Below are positions 3,601 through 41,473 of a DNA stretch of 64,000 bases, in pieces. Under the pieces are notes generated by a model, which saw nothing but the letters and a program-made list of their open reading frames with translations, was not told the DNA's origin and ran no database searches. The number at the start of each line of letters is the position of its first letter. Position 1 is the stretch's first letter. The position numbers and the translations under genes are program-made. Source of the DNA: Capsulimonas corticalis (GTDB taxonomy: Bacteria; Armatimonadota; Armatimonadia; Armatimonadales; Capsulimonadaceae); contig NZ_AP025739.1 of the NCBI RefSeq assembly GCF_003574315.2, positions 4,898,001 to 4,962,000 of the forward strand. Direction: 5' to 3'.

Positions 3601-4001
3601 CCGGGATGCTGCTGGTGAATGATGTGCTCGCGTCGGCCAACGCCAACAGTCTCAATCAGGAAGCCTGGATCGCGCGCGATCACTTCGGCATGGAGTCGTC
3701 CGATGTCCAGTTCCACGGATACTGGGATCCGGCGAACGGCCTGAAATGCGCGGCGCCCAGCGTGTTTGTCTCCGGCTGGACCCGGCCGGGCAAGGCGCTG
3801 ATCGTCGCTGCGAACATGGGAGAAAAGACGGGTGCGGCCGTAAGGATCGACGCGAAGGCGCTCGGTCTTCCCGCGTCGTCCCATTGGAAAGTATCGGACG
3901 CCGAGACCGGGCAAGCACTCTCGGCCGGCTCCGACGGACAGGTGACGCTCGCCATTGAGCGTCACGATTATCGGCAGATCGTCATCGAGACGGGCGAATA
4001 A
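681..4001 (+). CDS. Secreted CBM9-like plus glycoside hydrolase-type protein
   Basis: This encodes 1106 residues. I chose ATG 681 because it has an AAAGAG ribosome site and begins a clear signal peptide (basic start, a hydrophobic stretch, then PAGAAVADG); the frame is open back to 594 but that would bury the signal. Residues of about 35-230 look like a CBM9/DOMON-type sugar-binding sandwich (DGEIHEDEWRGA, DADNLYVAMRS). The middle is beta-rich. Residues of about 715-1010 resemble a DUF6067/GH123-like barrel, with DIDGFYVDNVFP and a histidine-rich DGEHHVIYP strand. The end is a short beta domain. The substrate is unknown; a role in extracellular polysaccharide breakdown is inferred. It sits 29 bases after the preceding gene and probably in the same operon. 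Confidence 0.72.
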   Translation: MQRPNTIVYFTLTSLLALAAMPRPAGAAVADGYKAPQIAVPYAWSKPTLDGEIHEDEWRGAESINTLQTPDHTLGSRPTRFWMMWDADNLYVAMRSPLRPGERLIQALRDPSKDVNAVMDDSYEFWLDAGSHSPDGQPVFFQYLGNFAGARWDVMQEPAAGNSRPSWTAHWSPKNHLTVGPDGARYWDMELAIPRASVYIDQPFQDGFSFTALLSRNFKRPWEQNSIPGTGSFSVPDTYAQYKLIKQAPAVHLLAAGDEKTKTLGLALAAWSPKDQTLHWRYDSDGGVHKEGDLAVKAGQDLAPASMLDLDKPGDGAFRIRVTSADGAQTYLDWSAHRQWGDDSALTQKLNDTGDKVDLTLGYNPARDYVRVTGDFIQYDDRAKIARAHVAVRDSQNMTLAEKDVHLDSLAYVRDLLQLPNVPGGDYTAQLTAYDGANHILFTRDSKFTKKDPTSFPWWNTKLGDIEKVIAPWTPVSYQAGTFGVWGRTMKVGAAGLPSQMTAQGHDLFAGGAYLAADFGSGAPVRTGASALTTLSSSAHRVVVRADDRLGKISVSSKVTTEFDGMYKVEMTLTPHGSVSVNSLKLVVPLRNDAANYLHACGEGIRYGFDDRFLPQGKTGALWDSRRVDGQPMLVGSFIPYLWIGNPERGVCWFADSDQGWVPSNQIPAIEIRRDSPGSTDLVLNLIGGKFTLTTPRTITFAFQATPVKPMPEHWRMDTWWTGDSFKDWAQIESEGKAGAMGLIFSSLPFPLDPPKSHEMVEARHKESNATIFGFDKYRANAVPYFEHINMGEQFVPELTYFNEEWRTRVSRGLSYGKTLSDFMIYKLSHWVQDADIDGFYVDNVFPIADDNIDSGHGYRLPDGRVQPAYQMFDTRRYFLRMRAAFAERGKSGKIVLHMTNHLIAPWMGAADIALDGEHHVIYPEMGKDFMDFWSQERLRMDHPEQWGSPVNFLQEYQGSWDHDVLKKAMRAYTGMLLVNDVLASANANSLNQEAWIARDHFGMESSDVQFHGYWDPANGLKCAAPSVFVSGWTRPGKALIVAANMGEKTGAAVRIDAKALGLPASSHWKVSDAETGQALSAGSDGQVTLAIERHDYRQIVIETGE

Positions 4002-4035
4002 ACACGCTCGTCTCATTCTTGAAAGGACCGGCGCC

Positions 4036-6135
4036 ATGCATACGTTTCGGCATAAGTCAGGATCGACCTTTAAGAAATCACTCGATGCTTTTGTTACTAT
4101 TGCGACAATGGGCGTAATCGCCGGCCATGCGTCGGCGCAAGGGCTACAAGTGACTTATGGCAACCAGGGACTTGCAACCCTCGTTTATAACGGCGTGACG
4201 CTCGCCGACACGAACGCGAACGGACAGGATGCGTTCGCGGTTTATGAGTACGAGCGCAAGGCTGCGAACGGAACGGTCACGGACAAGTATAGCTGGGACG
4301 GCGGCTATACGACGAGCTGGAACGCATCGACAAAGACGCTGACCCTGACCTACGACTGGGGAACGGTCAAGTGCATCTACACGCAGCCGACGTCCACACG
4401 CCTGAACCTGGCGATTACGGTGACGAACACCACGGCGGGCGATACGATCAACGGTCTTGCCGTTTCTCCTCTGTATGTCCGATTTCCCAACTTTCCGATC
4501 GGCTACGACGCCAACACGCCGCATGTCGGTTATAACTCGGACGGCCCGAACGTGCAGGTCGCCGACTATGGGACCGGCGCGATGGCGTTGTGCAATGACG
4601 ATGTCGTGAAGAATCTGTACAACGGCTTCTTTACCATTTCGCCCGACACGGCGAATTACAAGCGCTACGAGATCTGGACCGGATCGATGCCGCTCTCGTT
4701 CCAGCCCCCGAACTATCCGAAGTTCTACCGGCCGATCGCTCCCGGCGCCTCGGACACTTACAATATCTCCCTGCGCTTTGGCGCGACCGGGTCGACGGCG
4801 CCGACCCTCGCGGGCGATATCTACACCAGCTTCCGCACGGCCTGGCCGTCGCAGGTCAAATGGCCGGACCATCGATCTATCGGCGCGCTGTTCCTGGCGA
4901 CCAGTCAGTCGCACCCCGCGACTAACCCGCGCGGCTGGTTTCTGAACGATCCCTATGTAGACATCACCACCCCGTCCGGCGTTTCGGCGCTCCAGCAGCG
5001 GCTCCTGCAATACGCCGACAACAGCATTCCGATTCTGCAAAGCATGAACTCTCAGGGCATGATTGTGTGGGACGTCGAAGGGCAGGAGTTTCCGCAGCCG
5101 ACGAGCTATGTCGGCGACCCGACTCAGCTCAGCGTCCGCGCGCCGGAGATGGACCCGATCGCGGACCAGTTCTTCCAGAAGTTCCGCAACGCGGGGCTGC
5201 GCGTAGGCGTGACCATCCGGCCCCAGCAGCTCGTGACCAGCCCGTCGCCGCAGCAGAATGAAGTGACAAACCCGGCGCAGCTGATGATCAACAAGATCAA
5301 TTACGCCAAGCAGCGCTGGGGCTGCTCGATCTTCTATATCGACTCGAACGGCGACACCAACGCGCCCTACGATGCGTCGATCTTCAAGCAAGTGGCGGAC
5401 GCCGAGCCGGATGTGCTGCTTATCCCCGAGCACGCCAATCCCAAGTACTACGCCTACACGATTCCATACGGCGCGCTGACGAACGGCGCGACCGGCGACC
5501 CGCTGGCGGCGATCTGGACTTACCCGACGGCCTATAGCGCGATCTATACTCCCGACGGCGATTTGAACGGACAGCACAGCGCTCTGGTCGCATCCGTCAA
5601 GCGCGGTGATCTGCTGATGTATCGGGGCTGGTGGAACGATCCGCAGAACAGCCAGACACAGAGCGTTTACACGGACGCCGCGATTGGAACAGGCCTGAAG
5701 GGCCAGTACTACAACGACCCGAGCGGCGGCGGAACGACCTTCACCACGCTGGCGCTGACGCGGACGGATCCAACGGTCAACTTCAACTGGCCACAAGGGA
5801 CGTCGCCGGCGTCCGCGATCCAAACCTCGTTCTATTCCGCCAAGTGGACCGGATACATCACGGCGCCGATCACCGATTCCTATCAAATCCACGTGACGTC
5901 CGACGACGGCGCGCGGCTTTACGTCAATGGGCAGTCGCTTGTGGACAACTGGGGGCCGCACGCTCCGCAGGATAACTACGGCGTTATCAGCCTGGTCGCC
6001 GGCCAGAGATATACGATCGAACTGGACTTCCGCCAGTTCCAGGGCGGAGCCACCGCGAAATTGGAGTGGCTTGGCAACAGCGGCGCTCTGACGCGGCAGG
6101 TGATTCCCGCCGCAAACTTAACCCCGGCGCCGTAA
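4036..6135 (+). CDS. Secreted probable TIM-barrel glycosidase with C-terminal PA14 domain
   Basis: This encodes 699 residues from ATG 4036, which has GAAAGGA at 4021-4027 upstream. The signal peptide ends near GHASAQ. Residues of about 35-270 are a beta-rich domain and residues 290-545 look like a barrel. Candidate catalytic acids, conserved in the paralogue at 1-651, are Asp346/Glu348 in WDVEGQE, Asp436 in YIDSNGD and Glu465 in IPEH. Residues 553-699 are a PA14 domain (GLKGQYYND, DDGARLYVNGQSLVDNW), a fold that binds glycans in many secreted hydrolases. I do not recognise the barrel family, so the enzymatic role is inferred. It is probably cotranscribed with the gene ending at 4001. Confidence 0.72.
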   Translation: MHTFRHKSGSTFKKSLDAFVTIATMGVIAGHASAQGLQVTYGNQGLATLVYNGVTLADTNANGQDAFAVYEYERKAANGTVTDKYSWDGGYTTSWNASTKTLTLTYDWGTVKCIYTQPTSTRLNLAITVTNTTAGDTINGLAVSPLYVRFPNFPIGYDANTPHVGYNSDGPNVQVADYGTGAMALCNDDVVKNLYNGFFTISPDTANYKRYEIWTGSMPLSFQPPNYPKFYRPIAPGASDTYNISLRFGATGSTAPTLAGDIYTSFRTAWPSQVKWPDHRSIGALFLATSQSHPATNPRGWFLNDPYVDITTPSGVSALQQRLLQYADNSIPILQSMNSQGMIVWDVEGQEFPQPTSYVGDPTQLSVRAPEMDPIADQFFQKFRNAGLRVGVTIRPQQLVTSPSPQQNEVTNPAQLMINKINYAKQRWGCSIFYIDSNGDTNAPYDASIFKQVADAEPDVLLIPEHANPKYYAYTIPYGALTNGATGDPLAAIWTYPTAYSAIYTPDGDLNGQHSALVASVKRGDLLMYRGWWNDPQNSQTQSVYTDAAIGTGLKGQYYNDPSGGGTTFTTLALTRTDPTVNFNWPQGTSPASAIQTSFYSAKWTGYITAPITDSYQIHVTSDDGARLYVNGQSLVDNWGPHAPQDNYGVISLVAGQRYTIELDFRQFQGGATAKLEWLGNSGALTRQVIPAANLTPAP

Positions 6136-6226: not shown

Positions 6227-9200
6227 ATGATACGCGATCCACACGAACACAGCTCGCTCCCGTGGAGCGGCTACGCGGCGAAACTCAGTCAGCGGGCGTC
6301 GCGCCTGCTGGCGCCCTGGGCGGCGGTGCTGGCGACGGCCGTTCTCGCCAGCGCGCCGCTGCACGCCGCGACTTATTATGTGAGCCCATCGGGCAGCGAC
6401 ACCAATGCGGGAACGTCGACGGGCTTGCCCTGGAAGACGTGCGCCAAGGTCAACGCCACACACTTCAACGCGGGCGATTCCATTCTGTTCCAGCGCGGAG
6501 GCGAGTGGCATGAATCCGTGAACCCGACGGGTGGGGACGGCGCCGCTGGAAACCCGATCACCTTCGCCGACTACGGCTCCGGCGCGAAGCCGAAGTTCTG
6601 GGGCAGCGATCCGGTTGCGAACTCCGGCTGGACGAATACGACTGGAACGATCTACACGCACTCCTATACGACGCAGGTCGGAGCAGTGTATGTCAACCAT
6701 GTCGCCCTGGTTCCGGCCAACCCCAATGCGAACCAGCCCGTCGAGAGCATCCCTGGATCGTTTTCGTGGGACGGTAATACGCTCAAGATCAACGTTCCCA
6801 GTAACCCGAACTCGGACGGCAAGCTCTATACGGTCGCCAGCCGCCAGGATGTCATCTGCAACGGCAATGCGCAGACATACAGCCTGCACAATCACCTGGT
6901 CTTCACCAACTTAGTTTGCGATGAAACGGGCGACCTCAACGGCGGATACGGCGTGCGTATCATGAACGGGACCGACATCGTGCTAAACGGCGTCGAATCC
7001 TACCGATGCGGCAAGCACAACTTCGGATGCATCAACGCAACGCAGGTCATCCACAATAACTGCTACGCCGCATATCCCATGCCCAATCAAGACGCGTACG
7101 GCGGCTACACCGCCTACGTCTCTTATGGCGACAACAGCACCGGCATGAGCGGTCAGACTTCGGAATATCACTACTGCGTCGGCGACTATATGGACAACAC
7201 GTACCATACCAGTTCCTACGTCGATACGGGATATGAGTTCTTCACCACGCACGGTTCGAATGTCGGCTCTATCTGGCTCGATCACTGTTCGGCGCTTAGC
7301 ACCGCGGCGGGCGGCCCCGGCGCGCACTGGACGATCAGCAACACCGACTCCGCGCAGGCCGGCCATGCGGCGGCGATCACGATCACCGGCGGCTTCCTTC
7401 AGAACAATCAGCTATATATGCAGGGCACGGGGCTGGTTGTGGACGGTCTCCACATGCAGGGGCCTGGCGGGACGAGCAGCAACGATGCGACGTCGACCAT
7501 CGATATGGAGTGCTCGAACTCCACCGTCCAGAACATGCTGATGGACAAGACCAACGTCGGCTACTGGCTCTATCAGGCGGCGGTTCAGAACAACGGCGCC
7601 AACAACGTCATTCGGTTTAACACGTTCGTCAACGACCCGAACTCCGGAAACGCCATCCTCAAGAACGATGGGGCCAGCCTGAACTTCTATGGCAACATCC
7701 TGGTCGATTCCGGCAACTGGCTGAGCGACAACGCGCCTGCGTCCTCGTCGTACAACCTGATCGCCACTACGGCGAGCACGGTTGGGTTTAACAACGCAAG
7801 CGCCGGCGACTATTCGCTGCTTTCCACATCGGCGGCGGTGAACGCGGTCCCGACTTCGGTTTCGCATCCCAGCACGGATATCAACGGCTCCGCTCGCCCG
7901 CAGGGCTCGGCGGTGGACGAAGGCGCGTACGAATACGGCGGCTCCGGACCGGTCACTCCCGTGATTACCTCCGGCGCGACGGCCAGTGGAACGGTCGGCT
8001 CGGCTTTCTCCTATCAAATCGTCGCCAGCAATGCGCCGACGAGCTACAGTGCGACCGGCTTGCCGGCCGGCGTCACCATCAACAGCGGCACGGGCCTGAT
8101 CTCGGGAACTCCGACCACGGCGGGAACGTCCACCGTCACGCTGGGCGCCACCAACGGCGCCGGCACGGGAAACAAGACGCTGACGATCACGATCAGCGCC
8201 GCCGCGCCTTCAGCTCCGGTAATCACCAGCGCATCCACGGCCTCCGGCATGGTGGGCACGGCGTTCTCGTATCAAATCACGGCGAGCAACAGCCCCACAA
8301 GCTACAGCGCTTCGGGACTGCCGTCGGGCTTGTCCGTCAACACCAGCACCGGTCTGATCTCTGGAACGCCAACGGCGACTGGCACATCCACCGTCACACT
8401 GGGCGCAACCAACGCCGGCGGAACGGGCAACCTCACGCTGACAATCACCATCAGCGCATCAACCGGCACAGCCTACAACGTCAACGCCATCTACACTAGC
8501 GGCACGGCGTTCTCGACCGGCGGTCTGGATACCTACAACCACGCCTACCTGGCAAGCGAACTGGGATCCTCCGCCACCTACAACGGAAGCTCCTTCACCT
8601 TCGCCGCTCCCAACGTCCTCGACGCCTGGAGCAACATCACCGTCGCCCTGCCCGCCGGCAGCTACACCACGCTCAACATGGTCGGCTGTTCCTCGGGCGG
8701 CATCGCCACCAACCAGACCTTCACCGTCAACTACACCGACAGCACCACGCAGGCGTTCACCCTCCAGATGAGCGACTGGACCAACGGCTCGGGCTACTCG
8801 GATGAGACCAATGTGACGACGATGGCGCACTGCATCAACAGTGACGGCACGCTGACCACGCAGAGCCACTACCTCAAGGGCTACACATTCACTCTCAACG
8901 GCAAGTCTGTGGCAAGCATCACGCTGCCCGGCAATCGCGGTGTGGTCGTTCTTGCCTTCGCGGCGAGCGGCGCCGTCGCCTCGCCTCCGGTGATCAGCAG
9001 TGCGGCCACGGCGTCTGGCACGGTTGGCGCGGCGTTCTCTTACCAGATCGTCGCCAGCAACTCTCCGACCAGCTACAGCGCCTCGGGCTTGCCCGCCGGT
9101 CTCTCGGTCAACACGAGCACTGGCGCGATCTCGGGAACGCCGACAGCTTCGGGGACGTCCACGGTCACGCTGGGCGCCACGAATGCTGGCGGCACGGGCA

Positions 9201-10021
9201 ACAAGACGCTGACGATCACGATCGCGGCGGCTCCTCCGGCTGTTCCGGTGATCAGCAGCGGCGCGACGGCTTCGGGCACGGTGGGAACAGCGTTCTCTTA
9301 CCAGATCACGGCGAGCAACAGCCCGACGAGCTACAGCGCTTCGGGTCTGCCCGCCGGCCTGTCGGTCAACACGAGCACTGGTCTGATCTCGGGAACGCCC
9401 ACGGCGTCTGGAACCTCTACGGTTACCCTCGGCGCAACAAACGCCGGCGGAACGGGTAACAAGACACTGACGATTACCATCAGCGCCGCGTCCGGCGCGT
9501 CGCTGACGGGCACTCTGGGAACGCCTGCCTCCTCGGTCAATCTGACCACGGAAGGCACGCTGGACTGGGCGCACTGGGGATCGGACGGCTCCGGAAGCTG
9601 GACGCACAAATCCGGCGCGAACCTGATCGCCAACTGGACCGCGACCGCTACGGTCTTCACTTACCCCGGCAACGCGATCAGCTACATCTGGAGCGACGGC
9701 ACGAACTGGAACGGCACGGCGCAAGCGACCGGCTTCTACTTCTCCAACGCCTCCGGCTACTTCAGCTTCACCGCGCCGGCGGACACCACCACGCACACTC
9801 TTCGAGTGTATGTGGGAACGAACGCCGCGAACGGAACGCTGAGCGCGCACCTGTCGGACAGCTCCGCGCCGGATTACACCAACTCATCGCTTGCTCAGAA
9901 CAGCAACGGCGTTTACACTCTCACCTACCGCGCCGCAAGCGCCGGTCAGACATTGACCGTGAAGTGGACCAACACCAGCGCGCTGGGCAGCATCACGGTG
10001 CAGTCCGCGTCACTGCAATAA
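6227..10021 (+). CDS. Secreted parallel beta-helix protein with putative Ig repeats
   Basis: This encodes 1264 residues. ATG 6227 follows AAGGAGACGAT. The first 48 residues hold a long signal peptide ending LHAATYYVSPSGS. Residues of about 48-560 are a pectate-lyase-like right-handed beta-helix (TYYVSPSGSDTNAG and GDSILFQRGGEW are usual first coils of such proteins; the end has STDINGSARPQGSAVDEGAYEYGG). Four putative Ig (He_PIG) repeats follow, two on each side of a domain of about 160 residues that starts TAYNVNAIYTSGTAFSTGGLD, and a last beta domain of about 170 residues closes the protein. Such proteins bind or cleave polysaccharide. No catalytic residues can be assigned. Its last 1.8 kb is almost identical to the end of the next gene. 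Confidence 0.8.
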   Translation: MIRDPHEHSSLPWSGYAAKLSQRASRLLAPWAAVLATAVLASAPLHAATYYVSPSGSDTNAGTSTGLPWKTCAKVNATHFNAGDSILFQRGGEWHESVNPTGGDGAAGNPITFADYGSGAKPKFWGSDPVANSGWTNTTGTIYTHSYTTQVGAVYVNHVALVPANPNANQPVESIPGSFSWDGNTLKINVPSNPNSDGKLYTVASRQDVICNGNAQTYSLHNHLVFTNLVCDETGDLNGGYGVRIMNGTDIVLNGVESYRCGKHNFGCINATQVIHNNCYAAYPMPNQDAYGGYTAYVSYGDNSTGMSGQTSEYHYCVGDYMDNTYHTSSYVDTGYEFFTTHGSNVGSIWLDHCSALSTAAGGPGAHWTISNTDSAQAGHAAAITITGGFLQNNQLYMQGTGLVVDGLHMQGPGGTSSNDATSTIDMECSNSTVQNMLMDKTNVGYWLYQAAVQNNGANNVIRFNTFVNDPNSGNAILKNDGASLNFYGNILVDSGNWLSDNAPASSSYNLIATTASTVGFNNASAGDYSLLSTSAAVNAVPTSVSHPSTDINGSARPQGSAVDEGAYEYGGSGPVTPVITSGATASGTVGSAFSYQIVASNAPTSYSATGLPAGVTINSGTGLISGTPTTAGTSTVTLGATNGAGTGNKTLTITISAAAPSAPVITSASTASGMVGTAFSYQITASNSPTSYSASGLPSGLSVNTSTGLISGTPTATGTSTVTLGATNAGGTGNLTLTITISASTGTAYNVNAIYTSGTAFSTGGLDTYNHAYLASELGSSATYNGSSFTFAAPNVLDAWSNITVALPAGSYTTLNMVGCSSGGIATNQTFTVNYTDSTTQAFTLQMSDWTNGSGYSDETNVTTMAHCINSDGTLTTQSHYLKGYTFTLNGKSVASITLPGNRGVVVLAFAASGAVASPPVISSAATASGTVGAAFSYQIVASNSPTSYSASGLPAGLSVNTSTGAISGTPTASGTSTVTLGATNAGGTGNKTLTITIAAAPPAVPVISSGATASGTVGTAFSYQITASNSPTSYSASGLPAGLSVNTSTGLISGTPTASGTSTVTLGATNAGGTGNKTLTITISAASGASLTGTLGTPASSVNLTTEGTLDWAHWGSDGSGSWTHKSGANLIANWTATATVFTYPGNAISYIWSDGTNWNGTAQATGFYFSNASGYFSFTAPADTTTHTLRVYVGTNAANGTLSAHLSDSSAPDYTNSSLAQNSNGVYTLTYRAASAGQTLTVKWTNTSALGSITVQSASLQ
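8222..10021 (+). repeat. 1.8 kb direct repeat, copy A
   Basis: The 3' part of the beta-helix gene matches 12111-13913 with few differences, with one codon-sized length difference near 9495. The shared block codes for a putative Ig repeat, the 160-residue domain, two more Ig repeats and the closing domain. Identity is visible at DNA level including silent sites, and highest over about 8450-9330, so recent duplication or gene conversion is likely. Confidence 0.85.
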
Positions 10022-10031
10022 AAAAAGGGGA

Positions 10032-10176
10032 GGAGCCCTCATCCGGCCCTTCGGGCCACCCTCTCCCAGAATTGGGAGAGGGTTAAAAGTAAAATTGGAT
10101 CAAAGATCCAAATAAAACTCCCTCTGACTCCCCCTCTCCCAGAATTGGGAGAGGGGGTAGGGGGGTGAGGGCCTCC
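10032..10176. mobile_element. 145 bp MITE-like element with terminal inverted repeats, copy 1
   Basis: The ends are GGAGCCCTCATCC and GGGTGAGGGCCTCC, near-perfect inverted repeats. Inside are hairpins GGCCCTTCGGGCC, CCCTCTCCCA-GAAT-TGGGAGAGGG, TGGATC-AAA-GATCCA, and the second hairpin again near 10132-10155. It starts 11 bases after the stop of the beta-helix gene and has no coding capacity. The same 145 bp layout lies at 13924-14068. It could be a non-autonomous transposon, or a repetitive hairpin element that also ends transcription. It fills most of the 178 bp gap between genes. Confidence 0.7.
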
Positions 10177-10199
10177 GCGATACCTGAGAAACGATTACC

Positions 10200-13100
10200 A
10201 TGGCATCACCAACTCACCAAAAACCATTCCGAAAGCAATGGGCGCTTCCACTGCTCCTCGGCTTTATACTCGCGCTGATTGGCTCCGTGCAGGCCGCCAA
10301 CGCTACGAAAATTATGTGCATCGGCGACTCGATCACGGCCGGCAACAACTCTCCGAGCTACCGCTGGCCGCTCTTTCAGCGCTTCGCCTGGGCAGGCTAC
10401 GCCCCCAATATCCAGTTCGTCGGCCCCTATACGGGCGGTTCGAATACATCGGACTCCGTACCGAATCCCCAGGATGGCGCTGTCGTGAACGGGCAGACCT
10501 TCCACTCGCATCATGCGGCCATCTGGGGATTCACCTCGGCGGCCATCGCCAACGGCTTTGCGCCTGGCGGAGCGGCCACCGGATACGCCCCCGACATCGC
10601 CATCATCCATCTGGGAACCAACGACTTCTATATCGACGGCAACGCCCAGGATTCGTACCAGCGAAATTACCTGACCAACCCGCAGGCGACGACCGGCAAC
10701 TATGCGACAATCGTTTCCGAACTGCGCCAGGAGAATCCGAACGTCGTCATTCTGGTGTCGCAACTCATTTCGAGGGTGGGGGACCTTTGCGTCAGCCCGC
10801 AGATCAACGCCGCGATTCCGGCGTGGGCGGCGGCGAACACGACATCCAACTCCCCGATCATCGTCGTGGACCAGTATGGCGGCTACGACGCCTATCGGAT
10901 GAACCAATCCGACGGCACGCATCCCGCTACGGACGGCGAGGACTTCATGGCGCAGAACTATTTCAACGCCATACTGCCGTACCTTCCGGCTCCGACCGGA
11001 TCTTATCAGCCGGTCTTCACCACGCCGCTCTACGCGCGAGGCGCGGTCGGCAAACCGTTTTACTATGTCGTCGGGACCACGACGCCCGCGACGAGCATTA
11101 GCGTGACCGGTCTTCCGGCGGGTCTGAGCTACAGCAGCGGGATCATCTCGGGGACGCCGACCGCGGCGACCGCTCCCGCTCCGCCGCCGGGTGGCAACGC
11201 CGACAAGGTCAAGCCGGACCCGGTTGTCCTGACCGCATCGAACAGCGCCGGAACATACTCGGAGACGATCAATCTCGCGATTGCAGCGGCGTATCCTAAT
11301 CCCGCCTCGCCGGCTTCTATTCCCGGTACGATCTACCTGGACAATTACGACTCCGGCGGCCTTTGGGCTGGCTACCAGGCCTACGACAACTCGCTGCCGT
11401 ACTTCCCGGCGAACTTCCCGAACTTCACGTACTCCGGCAACTGGAGCGGGCCCTACCGGTACGATGATGTCGCAATCGCGTCCTGCTCCGACACCGTCAG
11501 CAACGGCTATTGCGTCGCCGCCACGGGAGCGCAGCAATGGACGAACTACACCGTCAATGTCGCCGCAACCGGCGTGTATCAGATGCAGGTCCGGCAGGCG
11601 ACGCCTGGCGCCGCGTCGTTTATCCATGCCTTGGTTGACGGATATGATGTCAGCCTTGGGAGCAATATCGTCGATCAGTACCTCCTGTCGTCCACGGGAA
11701 GCTGGAACACGTTTACTTCGACGGCGGCGCCTTACAACGTCAACCTGGCGGCCGGCGCGCACACGATCCAGATCTGGCAAGATTCCAGCGGCGTCGACCT
11801 GAACTGGATGAGCTTCACCTCCCTGGGAACAGGCTCGTTCCCGGTTTTGAGCGTCCCATCGGTCCTCAGCGCGACCGTTGGATCGCCGTTCTCCCAGACC
11901 GTTTCCGCCACCAATAGCCCCACCAGCTACAGCGTCATCGGACCGGGCTGGCTGAAGATGAGCGGCAATGCGCTGGTGGGGACACCCCCGGCGGCGGCGA
12001 CCTATCAGGCCACCTTGATCGCCGCGAACGGCAGCGGAGTCGGAACTGAGCCGATCACGATCAATGCGACCACGACCGGAAGCGGCGGAGGCGGCCCCTC
12101 GCAGCCCGCGATCACCAGCGCGTCCACGGCTTCTGGAACGGTCGGAACGGCGTTCTCGTATCAGATCACGGCGAGCAACAGCCCCACAAGCTACAGCGCT
12201 TCGGGACTGCCGTCGGGCTTGTCCGTCAACACCAGCACCGGTCTGATCTCTGGAACGCCAACGGCGACTGGCACGTCCACCGTCACGCTGGGCGCAACCA
12301 ACGCCGGCGGAACGGGCAACCTCACGCTGACAATCACCATCAGCGCGTCAACCGGCACGGCCTACAACGTCAACGCCATCTACACCAGCGGCACGGCGTT
12401 CTCGACCGGCGGTCTGGACACCTACAACCACGCCTACCTGGCAAGCGAACTGGGATCCTCCGCCACTTACAACGGAAGCTCCGTCACCTTCGCCGCTCCC
12501 AACGTCCTCGACGCCTGGAGCAACATCACCGTCGCCCTGCCCGCCGGCAGCTACACCACGCTCAACATGGTCGGCTGTTCCTCGGGCGGCATCGCCACCA
12601 ACCAGACCTTCACCGTCAACTACACCGACAGCACCACGCAGGCGTTCACCCTCCAGATGAGCGACTGGACCAACGGCTCGGGCTACTCGGATGAGACCAA
12701 TGTGACGACGATGGCGCACTGCATCAACAGTGACGGCACGCTGACCACGCAGAGCCACTACCTCAAGGGCTACACGTTCGCTCTCAACGGCAAGTCTGTC
12801 GCAAGCATCACGCTGCCCGGCAATCGCGGTGTGGTCGTTCTTGCCTTCGCGGCGAGCGGCGCGGTCGCCTCGCCTCCGGTGATCAGCAGTGCGGCCACGG
12901 CGTCAGGCACGGTTGGCGCGGCGTTCTCTTACCAGATCGTCGCCAGCAACTCTCCGACCAGCTACAGCGCCTCGGGGCTGCCCGCCGGTCTCTCGGTCAA
13001 CACGAGCACGGGCGCCATCTCTGGTACTCCGACAGCTTCGGGAACGTCCACGGTCACGCTGGGCGCCACGAATGCTGGCGGCACGGGCAACAAGACGCTG

Positions 13101-13913
13101 ACGATCACGATCGCGGCGGCTCCTCCGGCTGTTCCGGTGATCAGCAGCGGCGCGACGGCTTCCGGCACGGTGGGAACAGCGTTCTCTTATCAGATCACGG
13201 CGAGCAACAGCCCGACGAGCTACAGCGCTTCGGGTCTGCCCGCCGGCCTGTCGGTCAATACGAGCACCGGTCTGATCTCCGGTACTCCGACCGCTGCGGG
13301 CACGTCCACGGTCACCCTCGGCGCGACGAACGCCGGCGGAACGGGTAACAAGACACTGACGATTACGATCAGCGCCGCCTCCTCGGGCGCCACGCTCACA
13401 GGGTCGCTTGCGACGCCTTCGAGCAGCATCAATCTGACCACGGAGGGCACGGCCGACTGGGCGCACTGGGGCTCGGAAGGCTCGGGCAACTGGGACCACA
13501 AGAACGGCGCGAATTTGCTCGCCAGTTGGGCGTGCACCAGCACGATCTTCACCTACGGCGGCAACGCCATCAGCTACTTGTGGACCGACGCCCTGAACTG
13601 GAACGGCACGGCGCAAGCGACCGGCGTCTACTTCTCCGGCCAGAACAGCTACTTCAGCTTCACCGCGCCGGCGGGCACAACCACACACACACTCAAAGTG
13701 TACATCGGAGCCAACGGAGCGAACGGAACGCTGAGCGCGCACCTGTCGGACAGCTCCGCGTCGGATTACACCGACACATCCGTCGCTCAAAACAGCAACG
13801 GCGTTTACACTCTCACCTACCGCGCCGCAAGCGCCGGTCAGACATTGACGGTGAAGTGGACCAACATCAGCGCGCTGGGCAGCATCACGATGCAGTCCGC
13901 GTCGCTGCAATAA
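10200..13913 (+). CDS. Secreted SGNH/GDSL hydrolase with carbohydrate-binding and putative Ig domains
   Basis: This encodes 1237 residues. A signal peptide (hydrophobic residues 15-31, ending VQAANA) precedes an SGNH esterase domain at about 36-265: block I GDSIT with Ser44, block III GTND with Asn141, and block V DGTHP giving Asp238 and His241. These form the expected catalytic set, so carbohydrate or lipid ester hydrolysis is likely. Then come a putative Ig repeat, a CBM6-like domain at about 370-545 (PGTIYLDNYD, GVDLNWMSF), a degenerate Ig repeat, and from about residue 638 the block shared with the preceding gene. Deacetylation of a plant or microbial polysaccharide is inferred; the natural substrate cannot be told. 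No clear ribosome site precedes ATG 10200. Confidence 0.82.
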   Translation: MASPTHQKPFRKQWALPLLLGFILALIGSVQAANATKIMCIGDSITAGNNSPSYRWPLFQRFAWAGYAPNIQFVGPYTGGSNTSDSVPNPQDGAVVNGQTFHSHHAAIWGFTSAAIANGFAPGGAATGYAPDIAIIHLGTNDFYIDGNAQDSYQRNYLTNPQATTGNYATIVSELRQENPNVVILVSQLISRVGDLCVSPQINAAIPAWAAANTTSNSPIIVVDQYGGYDAYRMNQSDGTHPATDGEDFMAQNYFNAILPYLPAPTGSYQPVFTTPLYARGAVGKPFYYVVGTTTPATSISVTGLPAGLSYSSGIISGTPTAATAPAPPPGGNADKVKPDPVVLTASNSAGTYSETINLAIAAAYPNPASPASIPGTIYLDNYDSGGLWAGYQAYDNSLPYFPANFPNFTYSGNWSGPYRYDDVAIASCSDTVSNGYCVAATGAQQWTNYTVNVAATGVYQMQVRQATPGAASFIHALVDGYDVSLGSNIVDQYLLSSTGSWNTFTSTAAPYNVNLAAGAHTIQIWQDSSGVDLNWMSFTSLGTGSFPVLSVPSVLSATVGSPFSQTVSATNSPTSYSVIGPGWLKMSGNALVGTPPAAATYQATLIAANGSGVGTEPITINATTTGSGGGGPSQPAITSASTASGTVGTAFSYQITASNSPTSYSASGLPSGLSVNTSTGLISGTPTATGTSTVTLGATNAGGTGNLTLTITISASTGTAYNVNAIYTSGTAFSTGGLDTYNHAYLASELGSSATYNGSSVTFAAPNVLDAWSNITVALPAGSYTTLNMVGCSSGGIATNQTFTVNYTDSTTQAFTLQMSDWTNGSGYSDETNVTTMAHCINSDGTLTTQSHYLKGYTFALNGKSVASITLPGNRGVVVLAFAASGAVASPPVISSAATASGTVGAAFSYQIVASNSPTSYSASGLPAGLSVNTSTGAISGTPTASGTSTVTLGATNAGGTGNKTLTITIAAAPPAVPVISSGATASGTVGTAFSYQITASNSPTSYSASGLPAGLSVNTSTGLISGTPTAAGTSTVTLGATNAGGTGNKTLTITISAASSGATLTGSLATPSSSINLTTEGTADWAHWGSEGSGNWDHKNGANLLASWACTSTIFTYGGNAISYLWTDALNWNGTAQATGVYFSGQNSYFSFTAPAGTTTHTLKVYIGANGANGTLSAHLSDSSASDYTDTSVAQNSNGVYTLTYRAASAGQTLTVKWTNISALGSITMQSASLQ
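12111..13913 (+). repeat. 1.8 kb direct repeat, copy B
   Basis: This is the second copy of the block at 8222-10021, offset by 3889-3892 bases, in the same reading frame and strand. It encodes the same Ig, 160-residue, Ig, Ig and closing domains at the end of the SGNH hydrolase. The match continues past the stop codon into the 145 bp element. Confidence 0.85.
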
Positions 13914-13923
13914 AAAAAGGGGA

Positions 13924-14068
13924 GGAGCCCTCACCCGGCCCTTCGGGCAACCCTCTCCCAATTCTAGGAGAGGGTTAAGAGTTGGATGAGGATCAAAGAT
14001 CCTCAAAACAAAAACTCTGACTCCCCCTCTCCCAGAATTGGGAGAGGGGGCCGGGGGGTGAGGGCTCC
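13924..14068. mobile_element. 145 bp MITE-like element with terminal inverted repeats, copy 2
   Basis: The ends are GGAGCCCTCACCC (13924-13936) and GGGTGAGGGCTCC (14056-14068), perfect 13 bp inverted repeats. Inside lie GGCCCTTCGGGC, a CCCTCTCC hairpin, GAGGATC-AAA-GATCCTC and CCCTCTCCCA-GAAT-TGGGAGAGGG. It starts 11 bases after a stop codon, the same placement as copy 1. Compensating changes in the central stem (TGGATC/GATCCA in copy 1, GAGGATC/GATCCTC here) suggest the hairpin is selected. Confidence 0.7.
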
Positions 14069-37321: not shown

Positions 37322-40300
37322 TTAGTTCGGCGTCACCTCAATCGCGGCGACCTGGGCGTTGTCAACGGTTGCGTGGAACTGGATAACGATCTGGCCGCTG
37401 GAGTTCACGGTCGTGTCCAGGTCCTTGACGTCGGCCTTGTTGGCGCCTCCGGCGTCCGCGAAGATGTCGAAGTTGGTCATCAGCTGGGTTCCGTTGACCA
37501 CCACGTTGAACTTGCGGTCTCCGGCGGCGGGCCAGTACGTCTCGGCGAAGTGCATTCGCAGATGATACGATGCGCCCACCGGCAGGCTCGGGACCGTGTA
37601 GATGACGTCGCCGCCGTAGCGCGCCGTCGAGTAGACCGCCGCCGGAGCGGCGTTGGTCACGCCGGTCGTCGAAACGGCGGCGCCGCTCACGACGCCCGTT
37701 CCGGCGCTGGTGAAGAACTCATCCGCCACGAACGGGCTGACGGCCGGTCCTCCGCAGTTGATAGCGTAGCTCGGCCCAACGGTTTTGACGTTGAACCAGT
37801 TGAAGTCGTAGCCGTTGTCCGCATCCTCGTAGAGCTGGATGGTGTGATTGCCGGCGGTGAGTGAGACGCTGCCGGAGTTGACCGTGGTGAACGTATCGTA
37901 GCTGCCGGTGCCCGGCACCGCGATCGCGCCGGTCACGTTCGTCCCATCCACGTTGAAATGGATGCTGCCGCCGGAGGAGCCGGAGGAGACCCGCGTCTGG
38001 AACTGGTAGGTCCCGGCGGCGGTGACATTCACCATGTAGTTGAGATATTCGCCGGTGTTCGTCCAGCCGACCTGGTAGCCGCCGCCGGTGTCGCTGACGA
38101 CCGCGCGGATATCCACGTTGTCGCTGCGATAAGCGCCGCCGGTATTGCCGGCGTCGTTATCGTGGTACGCCACGCCTTCGCCGCCCAGATCGTAGTTCTC
38201 GGCTTCGATCTTGCCGGGAATGCTCCATCGCGTACCACCATAGGGCGATTCCACGGGAGTCGCCGGATTGATGGTGATCGTGAGCGTCTTGTTCCCCGTT
38301 CCGCCGGCGTTGGTCGCGCCGAGAGTCACCGTGGATGTGCCGGACGCCGTGGGCGTGCCGGAGATCAAGCCCGTGCTCGTGCTGACCGACAGACCCGCCG
38401 GCAGCCCAGAGGCGCTGTAGCTGGTCGGGCTGTTGCTCGCGGTGATCTGATAAGAGAACGCCGCGCCCACCGTGCCCGTCGCCGTGGCGGCGCTGCTAAT
38501 CACCGGCGCGGCGACGGCGATTGTGATGGTCAGAGTTTTGTTGCCCGTGCCGGTGGCGTTGGTCGCGCCAAGGGTGACGGTGGATGTGCCCGCCGCCGTG
38601 GGCGTTCCCGAAATAAGGCCGCTGCTGGTGTTAACGGACAGTCCCGCCGGCAGTCCCGTCGCGCTGTAGCTTGTGGGGCTGTTGCTCGCCGTGATCTGAT
38701 AGCTGAACGCCGTACCGACCGTTCCCGAAGCCGTCGCGGCGCTGCTGATGACCGGAGCCGAGCCGGCGGTTCCGCCATACTCGTACGCGCCGGCGTCGTC
38801 CGCCGCGCCATGCGGGCGGGCGTTGCCGAGAATATCCGAGGTCGGGTGGGCGACGGAGGTCGGGACAAAGTCAATCGCCGAGGATCCCGACTTCAGCGAG
38901 TAGTCGCCGGCGGCGGCATTGGAGAACAGCGCCGTGGTTGGGCTCGCGACCTGGATGGAATTGGCGTCGTATCCCTGTCCCTGCCACTGGGACAGGTTCC
39001 AGACGGTTCCGTAGTTGATCTGGAAGGTCGCGCCGTTGTTGTAGATGTTGTTGCGGACGTTCGCCGCGCTGAACGAGTTCGTACTGGTGAACGTGTTGAT
39101 CGCGAGCTGGTTGGCGAGCAGGATGTTGCCGTAAACCTGCGCGTTCGTGCCGTACGTGCTGCCGAGCGATGCGAGACACAGGGCGGTGAACCCATTGCCC
39201 GCCGTTGACGCCGTCGAGACCGTGTTGAACCGGAAGATATTGCTGTCGCCCCGGATCCAGACCGCGGAGTTGTAAGGTCCGGCGTTATTCGTTCCCGCGA
39301 TCAGACAGTTCTCGATGGTATTGCCGCTGCCGGCGATGTCCATACTGGCGTAAGGGCCGGTGATGGTCATGCCGTTGACGACGACATTCGGCCCGAGCGT
39401 GTTGACCTGCGCGCTGTAGCAGATACCGCCGTTGACGGTGACGACCGCGCCGCTGGCGCCGTCGAAGGTGCAGTTGTCGCCGGTTCCGTCGCCGCCGGTG
39501 TCGATCGCCTGGAAGTTGTTCAGCGTGACGGACTGGAGCGAGTTGCCGTGGTCCGTGAAGGCCTCATACTCGAAGTCGTTCCGGCCGCCCCAGGTGTCCG
39601 CCTGATGCTCGGCGATACAGTTGTTGTAGTAGGACGTTTCACTCAGGTTCGGACCCTGGTTGCCGAACGAGACGTAAGCCGTCTGCCCGGTCTGGACATT
39701 GGGCATCGGGTAGGCGCAGTAGCAGCTATTGAACGTGACGTTCGATCCGTCGATGACCGCGAAGCCATGGCGGCCGTAGCGATACACCTCGCATCCGTCC
39801 ACCAGCACGTTAACGCCCGTGTTTACGCCGTCGCCTTCAATGCGGACGCCGTAGCCGAGCGTCGGGTTCTGGTTGGACCCGCACTCGTCCACGACCAGGT
39901 TCCGGAACACCAGGTTCTTCGTGTAGTTGGAAGTCAGCTGGTTGCCGTTGCAGATGACGTTGTCGCGGACGCAGACATCATACTGAACGCCGTTCGTGTT
40001 CGGGTTGGAGCCGCTGGTGCTGATGGTGAGAACGCCGCCGCTCCACTTCCAGCAGTTGGCTGTGCTGCTCGGATCGCGGACGACGCTGCCATCCCCCGTG
40101 CCGCCGTTAAAGATGTCGATCAGGAACTGCTGGTTCGCCAGGACGGAGTTCACCTGCTGGGAGTACGAATGCGTGTAGACATTGTTCCCCTGAGAAACCC
40201 ACTGCCCGTCATTGACGGGAATCTGGTTGCTGCCCCAGAACTTCGGCTTGGCGCCGCTGCCGTAATCGGCGAAGGTGATGGGGTTGCCGGTCGCGCCGCT

Positions 40301-41110
40301 GCTCAGCGGGTTCAAAACTTCGCGCCAGCTGTCTCCGCGCTTGAACAGGACCGAGTCGCCGGAGGTCAGCGAGATGCTCTCCGCCTTCGCGACCGTCGCG
40401 AATGGCGACGCCTGCGTGCCCGGATTATTGTCGTTGCCGGTGCTGCTGCTGACGTAATACGTGTGGACGACATGCGGGGTGATCGTGTAGGTATTGATGA
40501 CGAAAATCGCGTTAACATCCGCGATAATCGCCTTCAAAGTGTGCACGCCGGCGGTCAGATGCGCGGACTGATAGGTGGCGACGCCGAAGTTGCCCCAGCT
40601 GCTCGTCTGCGCGAGCGTGATGTTGCCGGGAGTAACGTCCACGCCGTCCAGCTGGAAGTCCATCTGCCGTCCCGCCTGGGCCGGCGCGGCGTTGACCTGG
40701 ATGTCATAGTTGCCGGTCGTGGCGACATTGACGGTATAGGTCAGCCAGTCGCCCTGGACGACATGGTTGCCGACCACATAGCCGTTGCCGCCGACAATCA
40801 CGCCAGTTGCGGTTCCATATTGATTGATGGAGTTGATCGGGACGGGGCCGTTCGTGTCGTCCGCGCGATACACGCCGCTCGAGGCCGGCTGCTGGATATT
40901 GTAGGCGTCCCCCTGCGTTCCAGTATCGTAGTCGACGGCGTTGATCGTGCCTGGAACGGCAACCGGAGTGCCGGTAAACGGGGAGTGCGCCGAACACATC
41001 GCGCCTGTGGTCAGCAGAAGCGCCATGGTGAGAGGAAGACTGCTCAGTCGTCTCTGGCTGAAAGATTTACTTTGTCGGGCGCTGCGAAAGCGCTCCTGGG
41101 AAATTACCAT
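37322..41110 (-). CDS. Secreted beta-helix protein with CBM6-like, putative Ig and malectin domains
   Basis: This encodes 1262 residues. ATG 41110 is preferred because AGGAGGAT sits 5-6 bases upstream; ATG 41137 would add nine residues and place the ribosome site inside the gene. A signal peptide ends near AMCSAHS. In order: a CBM6-like domain (about 45-200), a right-handed beta-helix (about 205-760; TYYVSSSTGNDNNPGTQASPF, GDSVLFKRGDSW), two putative Ig repeats (about 765-935), a second CBM6-like domain with PGKIEAENYDLGGEG (about 950-1085), and a malectin domain (about 1090-1262; INCGGPAVSPFVADEFF, LRMHFAETYW, GDRKFNVVVNG). The domain plan resembles the proteins at 6227 and 10200. It probably binds or cleaves plant or microbial polysaccharide at the cell surface. 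Confidence 0.82.
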   Translation of the reverse strand: MVISQERFRSARQSKSFSQRRLSSLPLTMALLLTTGAMCSAHSPFTGTPVAVPGTINAVDYDTGTQGDAYNIQQPASSGVYRADDTNGPVPINSINQYGTATGVIVGGNGYVVGNHVVQGDWLTYTVNVATTGNYDIQVNAAPAQAGRQMDFQLDGVDVTPGNITLAQTSSWGNFGVATYQSAHLTAGVHTLKAIIADVNAIFVINTYTITPHVVHTYYVSSSTGNDNNPGTQASPFATVAKAESISLTSGDSVLFKRGDSWREVLNPLSSGATGNPITFADYGSGAKPKFWGSNQIPVNDGQWVSQGNNVYTHSYSQQVNSVLANQQFLIDIFNGGTGDGSVVRDPSSTANCWKWSGGVLTISTSGSNPNTNGVQYDVCVRDNVICNGNQLTSNYTKNLVFRNLVVDECGSNQNPTLGYGVRIEGDGVNTGVNVLVDGCEVYRYGRHGFAVIDGSNVTFNSCYCAYPMPNVQTGQTAYVSFGNQGPNLSETSYYNNCIAEHQADTWGGRNDFEYEAFTDHGNSLQSVTLNNFQAIDTGGDGTGDNCTFDGASGAVVTVNGGICYSAQVNTLGPNVVVNGMTITGPYASMDIAGSGNTIENCLIAGTNNAGPYNSAVWIRGDSNIFRFNTVSTASTAGNGFTALCLASLGSTYGTNAQVYGNILLANQLAINTFTSTNSFSAANVRNNIYNNGATFQINYGTVWNLSQWQGQGYDANSIQVASPTTALFSNAAAGDYSLKSGSSAIDFVPTSVAHPTSDILGNARPHGAADDAGAYEYGGTAGSAPVISSAATASGTVGTAFSYQITASNSPTSYSATGLPAGLSVNTSSGLISGTPTAAGTSTVTLGATNATGTGNKTLTITIAVAAPVISSAATATGTVGAAFSYQITASNSPTSYSASGLPAGLSVSTSTGLISGTPTASGTSTVTLGATNAGGTGNKTLTITINPATPVESPYGGTRWSIPGKIEAENYDLGGEGVAYHDNDAGNTGGAYRSDNVDIRAVVSDTGGGYQVGWTNTGEYLNYMVNVTAAGTYQFQTRVSSGSSGGSIHFNVDGTNVTGAIAVPGTGSYDTFTTVNSGSVSLTAGNHTIQLYEDADNGYDFNWFNVKTVGPSYAINCGGPAVSPFVADEFFTSAGTGVVSGAAVSTTGVTNAAPAAVYSTARYGGDVIYTVPSLPVGASYHLRMHFAETYWPAAGDRKFNVVVNGTQLMTNFDIFADAGGANKADVKDLDTTVNSSGQIVIQFHATVDNAQVAAIEVTPN

Positions 41111-41473
41111 TCCGATCCTCCTGCAATTGTGTTGCAATATCGCGAAAAGTACGACTACTGATTACACACGCGCCATTCTCCGAGAGGCGTGACTTACTTA
41201 GGATCGTTTCGCCGCTTCACTCCTTTCTCCGGGTATTTCTTAAATCACACAAACTGTATTGCGATTGTTGCTATTAAACTGAATTTTGAGGATATGTAAC
41301 TTTTCTCCACATCACATCGTGGAGGTTTACTGGGCGGCGTCACAAAGACATGCCAGCAGAGTCGCGCTAATGCGCGAACTGTGCTAGCAGAGCGTGACCA
41401 GTATACAACGCTTCCCGCACTTTGTCAACGACATTTTTTCATGCCGGTCCAATGTTGGGCGCCGTACGATCCG
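41111..41473 (-). other. 363 bp gene-free stretch holding a long leader
   Basis: No ORF here looks real. It contains the promoter at 41400-41428 and, on the minus strand, a leader of about 280 nt for the gene at 37322-41110. In the leader I see two repeats of CTCTGCT(A/G)GCA, a CGCGC-ATTA-GCGCG hairpin near 41366-41379 and a CTCCAC/GTGGAG hairpin at 41305-41324. No known riboswitch was recognised. Confidence 0.5.
41400..41428 (-). promoter_or_regulatory. Near-consensus sigma-70 promoter (minus strand)
   Basis: On the minus strand, TTGACA (41428-41423) and TATACT (41405-41400) are exactly 17 bases apart. Transcription would start near 41393 and read into the beta-helix/malectin gene. Confidence 0.75.

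Follow-up and report, generated by a model that had tools for sequence, protein, structure and literature searches.

The window, a 64,000-nt stretch at 4,898,001–4,962,000 of a single-contig Capsulimonas (Armatimonadota) genome of 7,645,051 bases (7.645 Mb), contains two adjacent genes, hereafter referred to as gene 1 and gene 2, which lie in one run with neighbouring secreted and transport genes. Protein functions were assigned by similarity only. The features of the locus, in window coordinates, are as follows.

3955–6135, + strand: the preceding secreted gene, with a PA14 domain at 5689..6075, the domain type lost from gene 2
6227..10021, + strand: gene 1, the proposed donor, an ORF encoding a secreted beta-helix-type protein of 1264 aa
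8266..9373, + strand: the gene 1 stretch from which conversion tract 1 was putatively copied, sharing 97.7% identity with gene 2
8468..8977, + strand: middle beta-sandwich module of gene 1, with an AziU2/U3-like predicted fold (model plus Foldseek match 8gs1_C)
9485..10018, + strand: CBM-like beta-sandwich C-terminal domain of gene 1, an older paralog of the gene 2 counterpart (79% aa identity to gene 2; Foldseek)
10034..10172, + strand: EL1, an inverted-pair PIT/TM element of a dispersed family, following gene 1 (family alignment; Holder 2015 Table 1)
10200..13913, + strand: gene 2, the proposed recipient, encoding an SGNH/GDSL esterase of 1237 aa (Pfam Lipase_GDSL_2, CBM_35_2 and He_PIG)
12150..13262, + strand: putative conversion tract 1 in gene 2, in place of the He_PIG/PA14 stretch of the congener ortholog, with borders within He_PIG repeats
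12357..12866, + strand: middle module of gene 2, its protein 99% identical to the gene 1 module
13377..13910, + strand: CBM-like C-terminal domain of gene 2, orthologous to that of the congener by site comparison
13800..13960, + strand: possible short second tract, comprising the last ~110 coding nt, the stop, the spacer and ~25 nt at the start of the element
13926..14065, + strand: EL2, of the same family as EL1 but a different subfamily, after gene 2 (nearest relative L024, 96.4%)

Gene 1 has, besides its N-terminal part, four He_PIG repeats, the middle module and the C-terminal domain. The N-terminal part is similar to the beginning of lacto-N-biosidase chains of the GH136 type (PDB matches 7v6m and 6kqs), which we take to have a beta-helix fold, and the gene also matches choice-of-anchor Q. 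The PDB matches of gene 2 are to acetyl esterase (5b5l, E 1.2e-13; 5b5s, E 4.8e-14). Elsewhere in the window, a protein encoded at 37322–41137 on the minus strand shares 42% identity with the N-terminal region of the gene 1 protein and also has He_PIG repeats, with 78% DNA identity to those of gene 1; it is a possible additional recombination partner.

No Pfam family above the cut-off was found for the middle module. Its predicted structure (pLDDT 86.6) has Streptomyces AziU2/AziU3 as its best fold match in Foldseek (8gs1_C; TM 0.80, 20% identity), so that neither a known CBM sequence family in Pfam nor a CBM-like best fold in Foldseek accompanies it, and the term 'binding module', used in the initial annotation, therefore describes a presumed role. 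The module is also present in further Capsulimonas proteins and in other members of the Armatimonadota; in the same genome, it occurs twice in a pro-kumamolisin-domain protein (about 295,373–296,728, minus strand; L121). The C-terminal domain, predicted to be a beta-sandwich (pLDDT 85.7), gave Foldseek matches with modest TM scores to many CBMs (CBM61, CBM16, CBM22 and CBM35), and in this modelled form looks CBM-like.

Local alignment paired positions 8222–10172 with 12111–14065 at 92% identity overall, and a search of the whole genome returned no other match to this block of comparable length. The initial annotation had described a near-identical duplication of 2 kb, silent sites included. 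The match is real, but near-identity is confined to about 1.1 kb of it, and the identity proceeds in steps of 98, 79 and 91%. Segment 8271–9375 is 97.7% identical to gene 2, with a dS of 0.08 and codon changes of which 23 are synonymous and 2 non-synonymous; here the agreement does extend to silent sites. It does not in the C-terminal domain, where segment 9376–9800 has 79% identity, a dS of 0.57 and a dN of 0.16. Identity rises again to 91% in segment 9801–10021, the final ~110 bp being about 96–98% identical. The 5′ halves of the two genes, as had been stated, are unrelated, their similarity not exceeding background. Nor does the identity fall off at the stop codons, as the ~150 bp spanning the stop are ~96% identical between the two genes. 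Both elements begin about 11 nt 3′ of the respective stop, and the match that had been said to run on into them does so only in part: past the stop, near-identity covers a common 17 nt and ~23–25 nt at the start of the element, and the remainder of the element diverges. Silent differences are clustered within He_PIG repeats at 9119–9152 and 9377–9437, a hint of further small exchanges among these repeats, within and between genes.

Long repeats that are adjacent, as these are, could arise as an assembly artefact. The matched coding sequences, however, differ at 141 positions and have distinct unique flanks, the genome is a single contig and a congener carries both genes, all of which makes an artefact scarcely credible.

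The ancestry of each piece was assessed by comparison with Capsulimonas sp. RYN_270, the sole same-genus relative found, a metagenome-assembled genome (MAG) that is 69% complete. The ortholog of gene 1 is on contig C296 and that of gene 2 on contig C629. The former includes He_PIG and 47 aa from the start of the module (77% identity), at which point the contig ends, so that the 3′ half of gene 1 is not polarisable. The latter has the order He_PIG-PA14-He_PIG-C-domain (Pfam PA14, E 4e-23), as against He_PIG-module-He_PIG-He_PIG-C-domain in the corresponding stretch of gene 2 in the window. The PA14 domain at 5689..6075, in the secreted gene before gene 1, and that of the RYN_270 gene 2 match at 72% of DNA positions.

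Sliding codon identity revealed that gene 2 tracks its RYN_270 ortholog up to ~12,150 and gene 1 of the window from there to ~13,260. From ~13,260 to ~13,790 the ortholog is about equally close or closer than gene 1, and from ~13,790 to the stop gene 1 is matched again. Third-position identity of gene 2 upstream of the tract was 40–77% to the ortholog and at background to gene 1; inside the tract it was 80–100% to gene 1. The DNA of the gene 2 flanks is 74–92% (upstream) and 79–87% (downstream) identical to the ortholog. At the 5′ border, informative sites changed from 11:68 upstream to 60:2 inside (p = 1e-25), and at the 3′ border from 44:0 inside to 56:67 downstream (p = 1e-12). In the possible short tract next to the stop the count was 14:2, compared with 56:67 (p = 0.002). 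Both borders of tract 1 fall within He_PIG repeats, and the 3′ border is soft (13,260–13,380) because these repeats resemble each other. Gene 1 is collinear with its own ortholog over the 5′ border without a break, and the contig in the MAG ends before the 3′ border. The C-terminal domain of gene 2, judging from the sequences, predates the species split, as the congener's gene 2 already has it.

These comparisons bear on where the piece came from. Had the module been ancestral in gene 2 and been copied to gene 1, the congener's gene 2 would have acquired PA14 separately. The incomplete 3′ end of the congener's gene 1 leaves room for such a course of events, but the start of the module is already present in that gene, and gene 1, unlike gene 2, is collinear with its ortholog over the 5′ border; we regard the reverse direction as very unlikely. 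Entry of the 1.1-kb piece into gene 2 by horizontal transfer from outside, rather than from the neighbouring gene, is extremely unlikely, given that the piece is 97.7% identical to gene 1 next door and that the other copies, in the same genome and in the phylum genomes searched, reach at most 46% aa identity, except for the gene 1 fragment of the congener (77%).

The elements that follow the two genes belong to a dispersed family related to the PIT/TM intrastrand-triplex motif, which is reportedly due to Hoyne et al. Their stem cores, CCCTCTCCC...GGGAGAGGG, occur at least 94 times as exact matches in the genome, compared with 0 for the reversed control. The right half of the element corresponds to the PIT/TM motif as tabulated by Holder et al. 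2015 (Table 1, PMC4666352): the stem CCCTCTCCC/GGGAGAGGG is accompanied by a third strand, GGGG(T/A)GAGGG, in agreement with the sequence definition of the motif. In nearly all of the copies sampled, two such motifs form an inverted pair of ~140 bp. As single strands, EL1 and EL2 fold far more strongly than shuffled sequences (z −9.6 and −8.5), and neither has, on the plus strand, the T-tract hairpin of an intrinsic terminator. The base of the stem carries neither a GTAG nor a CGTC tag, the ends of the element reading GCCCTCACCC...GGGTGAGGGC. A RAYT/Y1 transposase was considered as the mobiliser and rejected, as none of the five Y1_Tnp loci in the genome has an element within 1.5 kb; Rfam matches of the element to miRNAs were sub-threshold only and were taken as chance. 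Four copies lie within about 7 kb at 3,722,744–3,729,700 of the genome, and another, around 1500–1640 of L029, has a perfect inverted repeat of 15 nt on its two sides (GTGATGGGAATGCAG / CTGCATTCCCATCAC), as though placed into a pre-existing hairpin.

Among 63 extracted copies, the nearest relative of EL2 is L024 (96.4%) and that of EL1 is L005/L006 (89%). When the 62 family members were ranked by similarity, EL1 was 26th for EL2 and EL2 16th for EL1; therefore, the two were not duplicated together as a unit. A palindromic element of a different form already follows gene 2 in the congener, and the earlier proposal that the element was co-transferred with the cassette does not stand. The same results weigh against a single segmental duplication of 2 kb, by which the whole 3′ half and the trailing element would have been placed onto a new 5′ half. 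The match is collinear, spacer and element position included, as such an event would predict, but the identity changes in the steps described above, the C-terminal domain of gene 2, an ortholog of the domain in the congener, is older than the transfer, and neither of EL1 and EL2 is the other's nearest relative; this scenario is highly improbable.

With respect to position, 48 of the 52 well-delimited copies follow the stop of an ORF (100 codons or longer) at a distance of no more than 15 nt, compared with 5.8% of control positions (gene calls near the elements were made with a simple ORF scorer and were supported by a test independent of any gene finder). Just one copy is located between divergent genes. 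EL1 and EL2 thus have equal spacing from the stops because post-stop placement is a habit of the family. The E. coli TM loci that we checked, using the coordinates in Holder Table 1, lie about 10, 12, 12, 21, 53 and 80 nt after stops, with one divergent site; this looser placement indicates that tight post-stop placement is not universal to the motif. E. coli REPs that lie no more than 15 nt from a stop reportedly cause ribosomes to stall and reduce translation (Liang, Rudd & Deutscher 2015, as cited in PMC12306157). These translation-lowering REPs are the best lead to the function of the elements here.

Nine orthologous element sites, that of gene 2 included, could be compared with RYN_270. 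Eight have a palindromic pair in the congener and one (L013) is empty. Half of the eight occupied sites (gene 2, L012, L020 and L015) have kept the motif family with a different left half, and the other half (L005, L011, L008 and L023) are occupied by another long inverted repeat, its arms 30–65 nt in length. The L005 comparison may involve a paralogous locus. No clear target-site duplication was seen among the nine, which include the single clean empty site (L013). In the congener, these post-stop sites (L166–L169, L178–L181 and L118 in RYN_270) thus mostly have palindromic pairs of other sequence (8 of 9). In-place turnover of post-stop elements between congeners is possible. The pattern differs from what simple insertion of a mobile unit would predict, which we offer as an observation and not as a settled mechanism. 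Tentatively, and with less than even confidence, we suggest that the palindromic elements could be positional fixtures directly behind stops, acting as mRNA hairpins instead of being randomly inserting mobile units, with the site kept between species and its sequence exchanged partly or wholly for that of another palindromic family.

Taken together, these results are best explained by a recent interlocus gene conversion in which gene 1 was the donor and gene 2 the recipient, with borders in He_PIG repeats, an older C-terminal domain and elements that were not co-transferred, an explanation that we consider highly probable. Once this lineage had separated from that of Capsulimonas sp. RYN_270, homologous recombination between the He_PIG Ig repeats common to both genes, through gene conversion or an equivalent non-reciprocal exchange, would have placed in gene 2 a copy of ~1.1 kb from its neighbour, gene 1, comprising He_PIG, the middle module and two further He_PIG repeats. 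The He_PIG/PA14 stretch of gene 2 would thereby have been overwritten, and the SGNH esterase would have acquired the module of the beta-helix protein. The C-terminal domains would reflect an older paralogy, modified by no more than one additional short tract close to the stop, and EL1 and EL2 would be independent members of the dispersed family, outside the transfer. The mosaic, the change of ancestry along gene 2, its domain difference from the ortholog and the more distant relationship of EL1 to EL2 are seen directly in the sequences; the recombination mechanism, the direction from gene 1 to gene 2 and any functional gain we infer. The proposal in the initial annotation that a module cassette moved to a gene with a different catalytic domain is supported, and the move would be recent and within the genome. 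The cassette is internal, however, and consists of He_PIG, the ~170-aa beta module and two He_PIG repeats; it is not the whole 3′ half with its element, the C-terminal domain being already present in the congener's gene 2. It is the He_PIG repeats that match the borders as homology tracts; of the trailing element, which had been suggested as a possible homology tract, at most the first ~25 nt belong to the second short tract.

The locus would represent a well-polarised natural case, between two congeners, of a secreted enzyme that changed an accessory domain by recombination between Ig-like spacer repeats, and it suggests that modular secreted enzymes in the Armatimonadota may be re-tooled by such recombination. 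The identical distance of the elements from both genes is accounted for by a genome-wide repeat that hugs stop codons, and caution is needed not to take such element pairs for duplicated units.

As in interlocus (ectopic) gene conversion between adjacent paralogs, a bounded tract in which the paralogs are closer to each other than to their orthologs is found here, and the flanks of the recipient, gene 2, retain ortholog identity. Unlike typical conversion pairs, gene 1 and gene 2 are paralogous only in their modular parts, and the outcome is a domain replacement, with PA14 out and the module in, and not the homogenisation of entire genes. The elements share with PIT/TM the arrangement CCCTCTCCC-loop-GGGAGAGGG with a third purine run, GGGGTGAGGG, after it, the occurrence as inverted pairs and the many copies per genome, but differ in often having an extra GGCCC-type mini-hairpin in one of the halves and GGATC-AAA-GATCC at the centre, and in being almost all ~140-bp inverted pairs placed tightly against stop codons. 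They resemble REP/BIME sequences in being palindromic, in inverted pairs, intergenic and 3′ of ORFs, within 15 nt of stops, and differ from them in having neither a GTAG or CGTC tag nor a RAYT flanked by copies.
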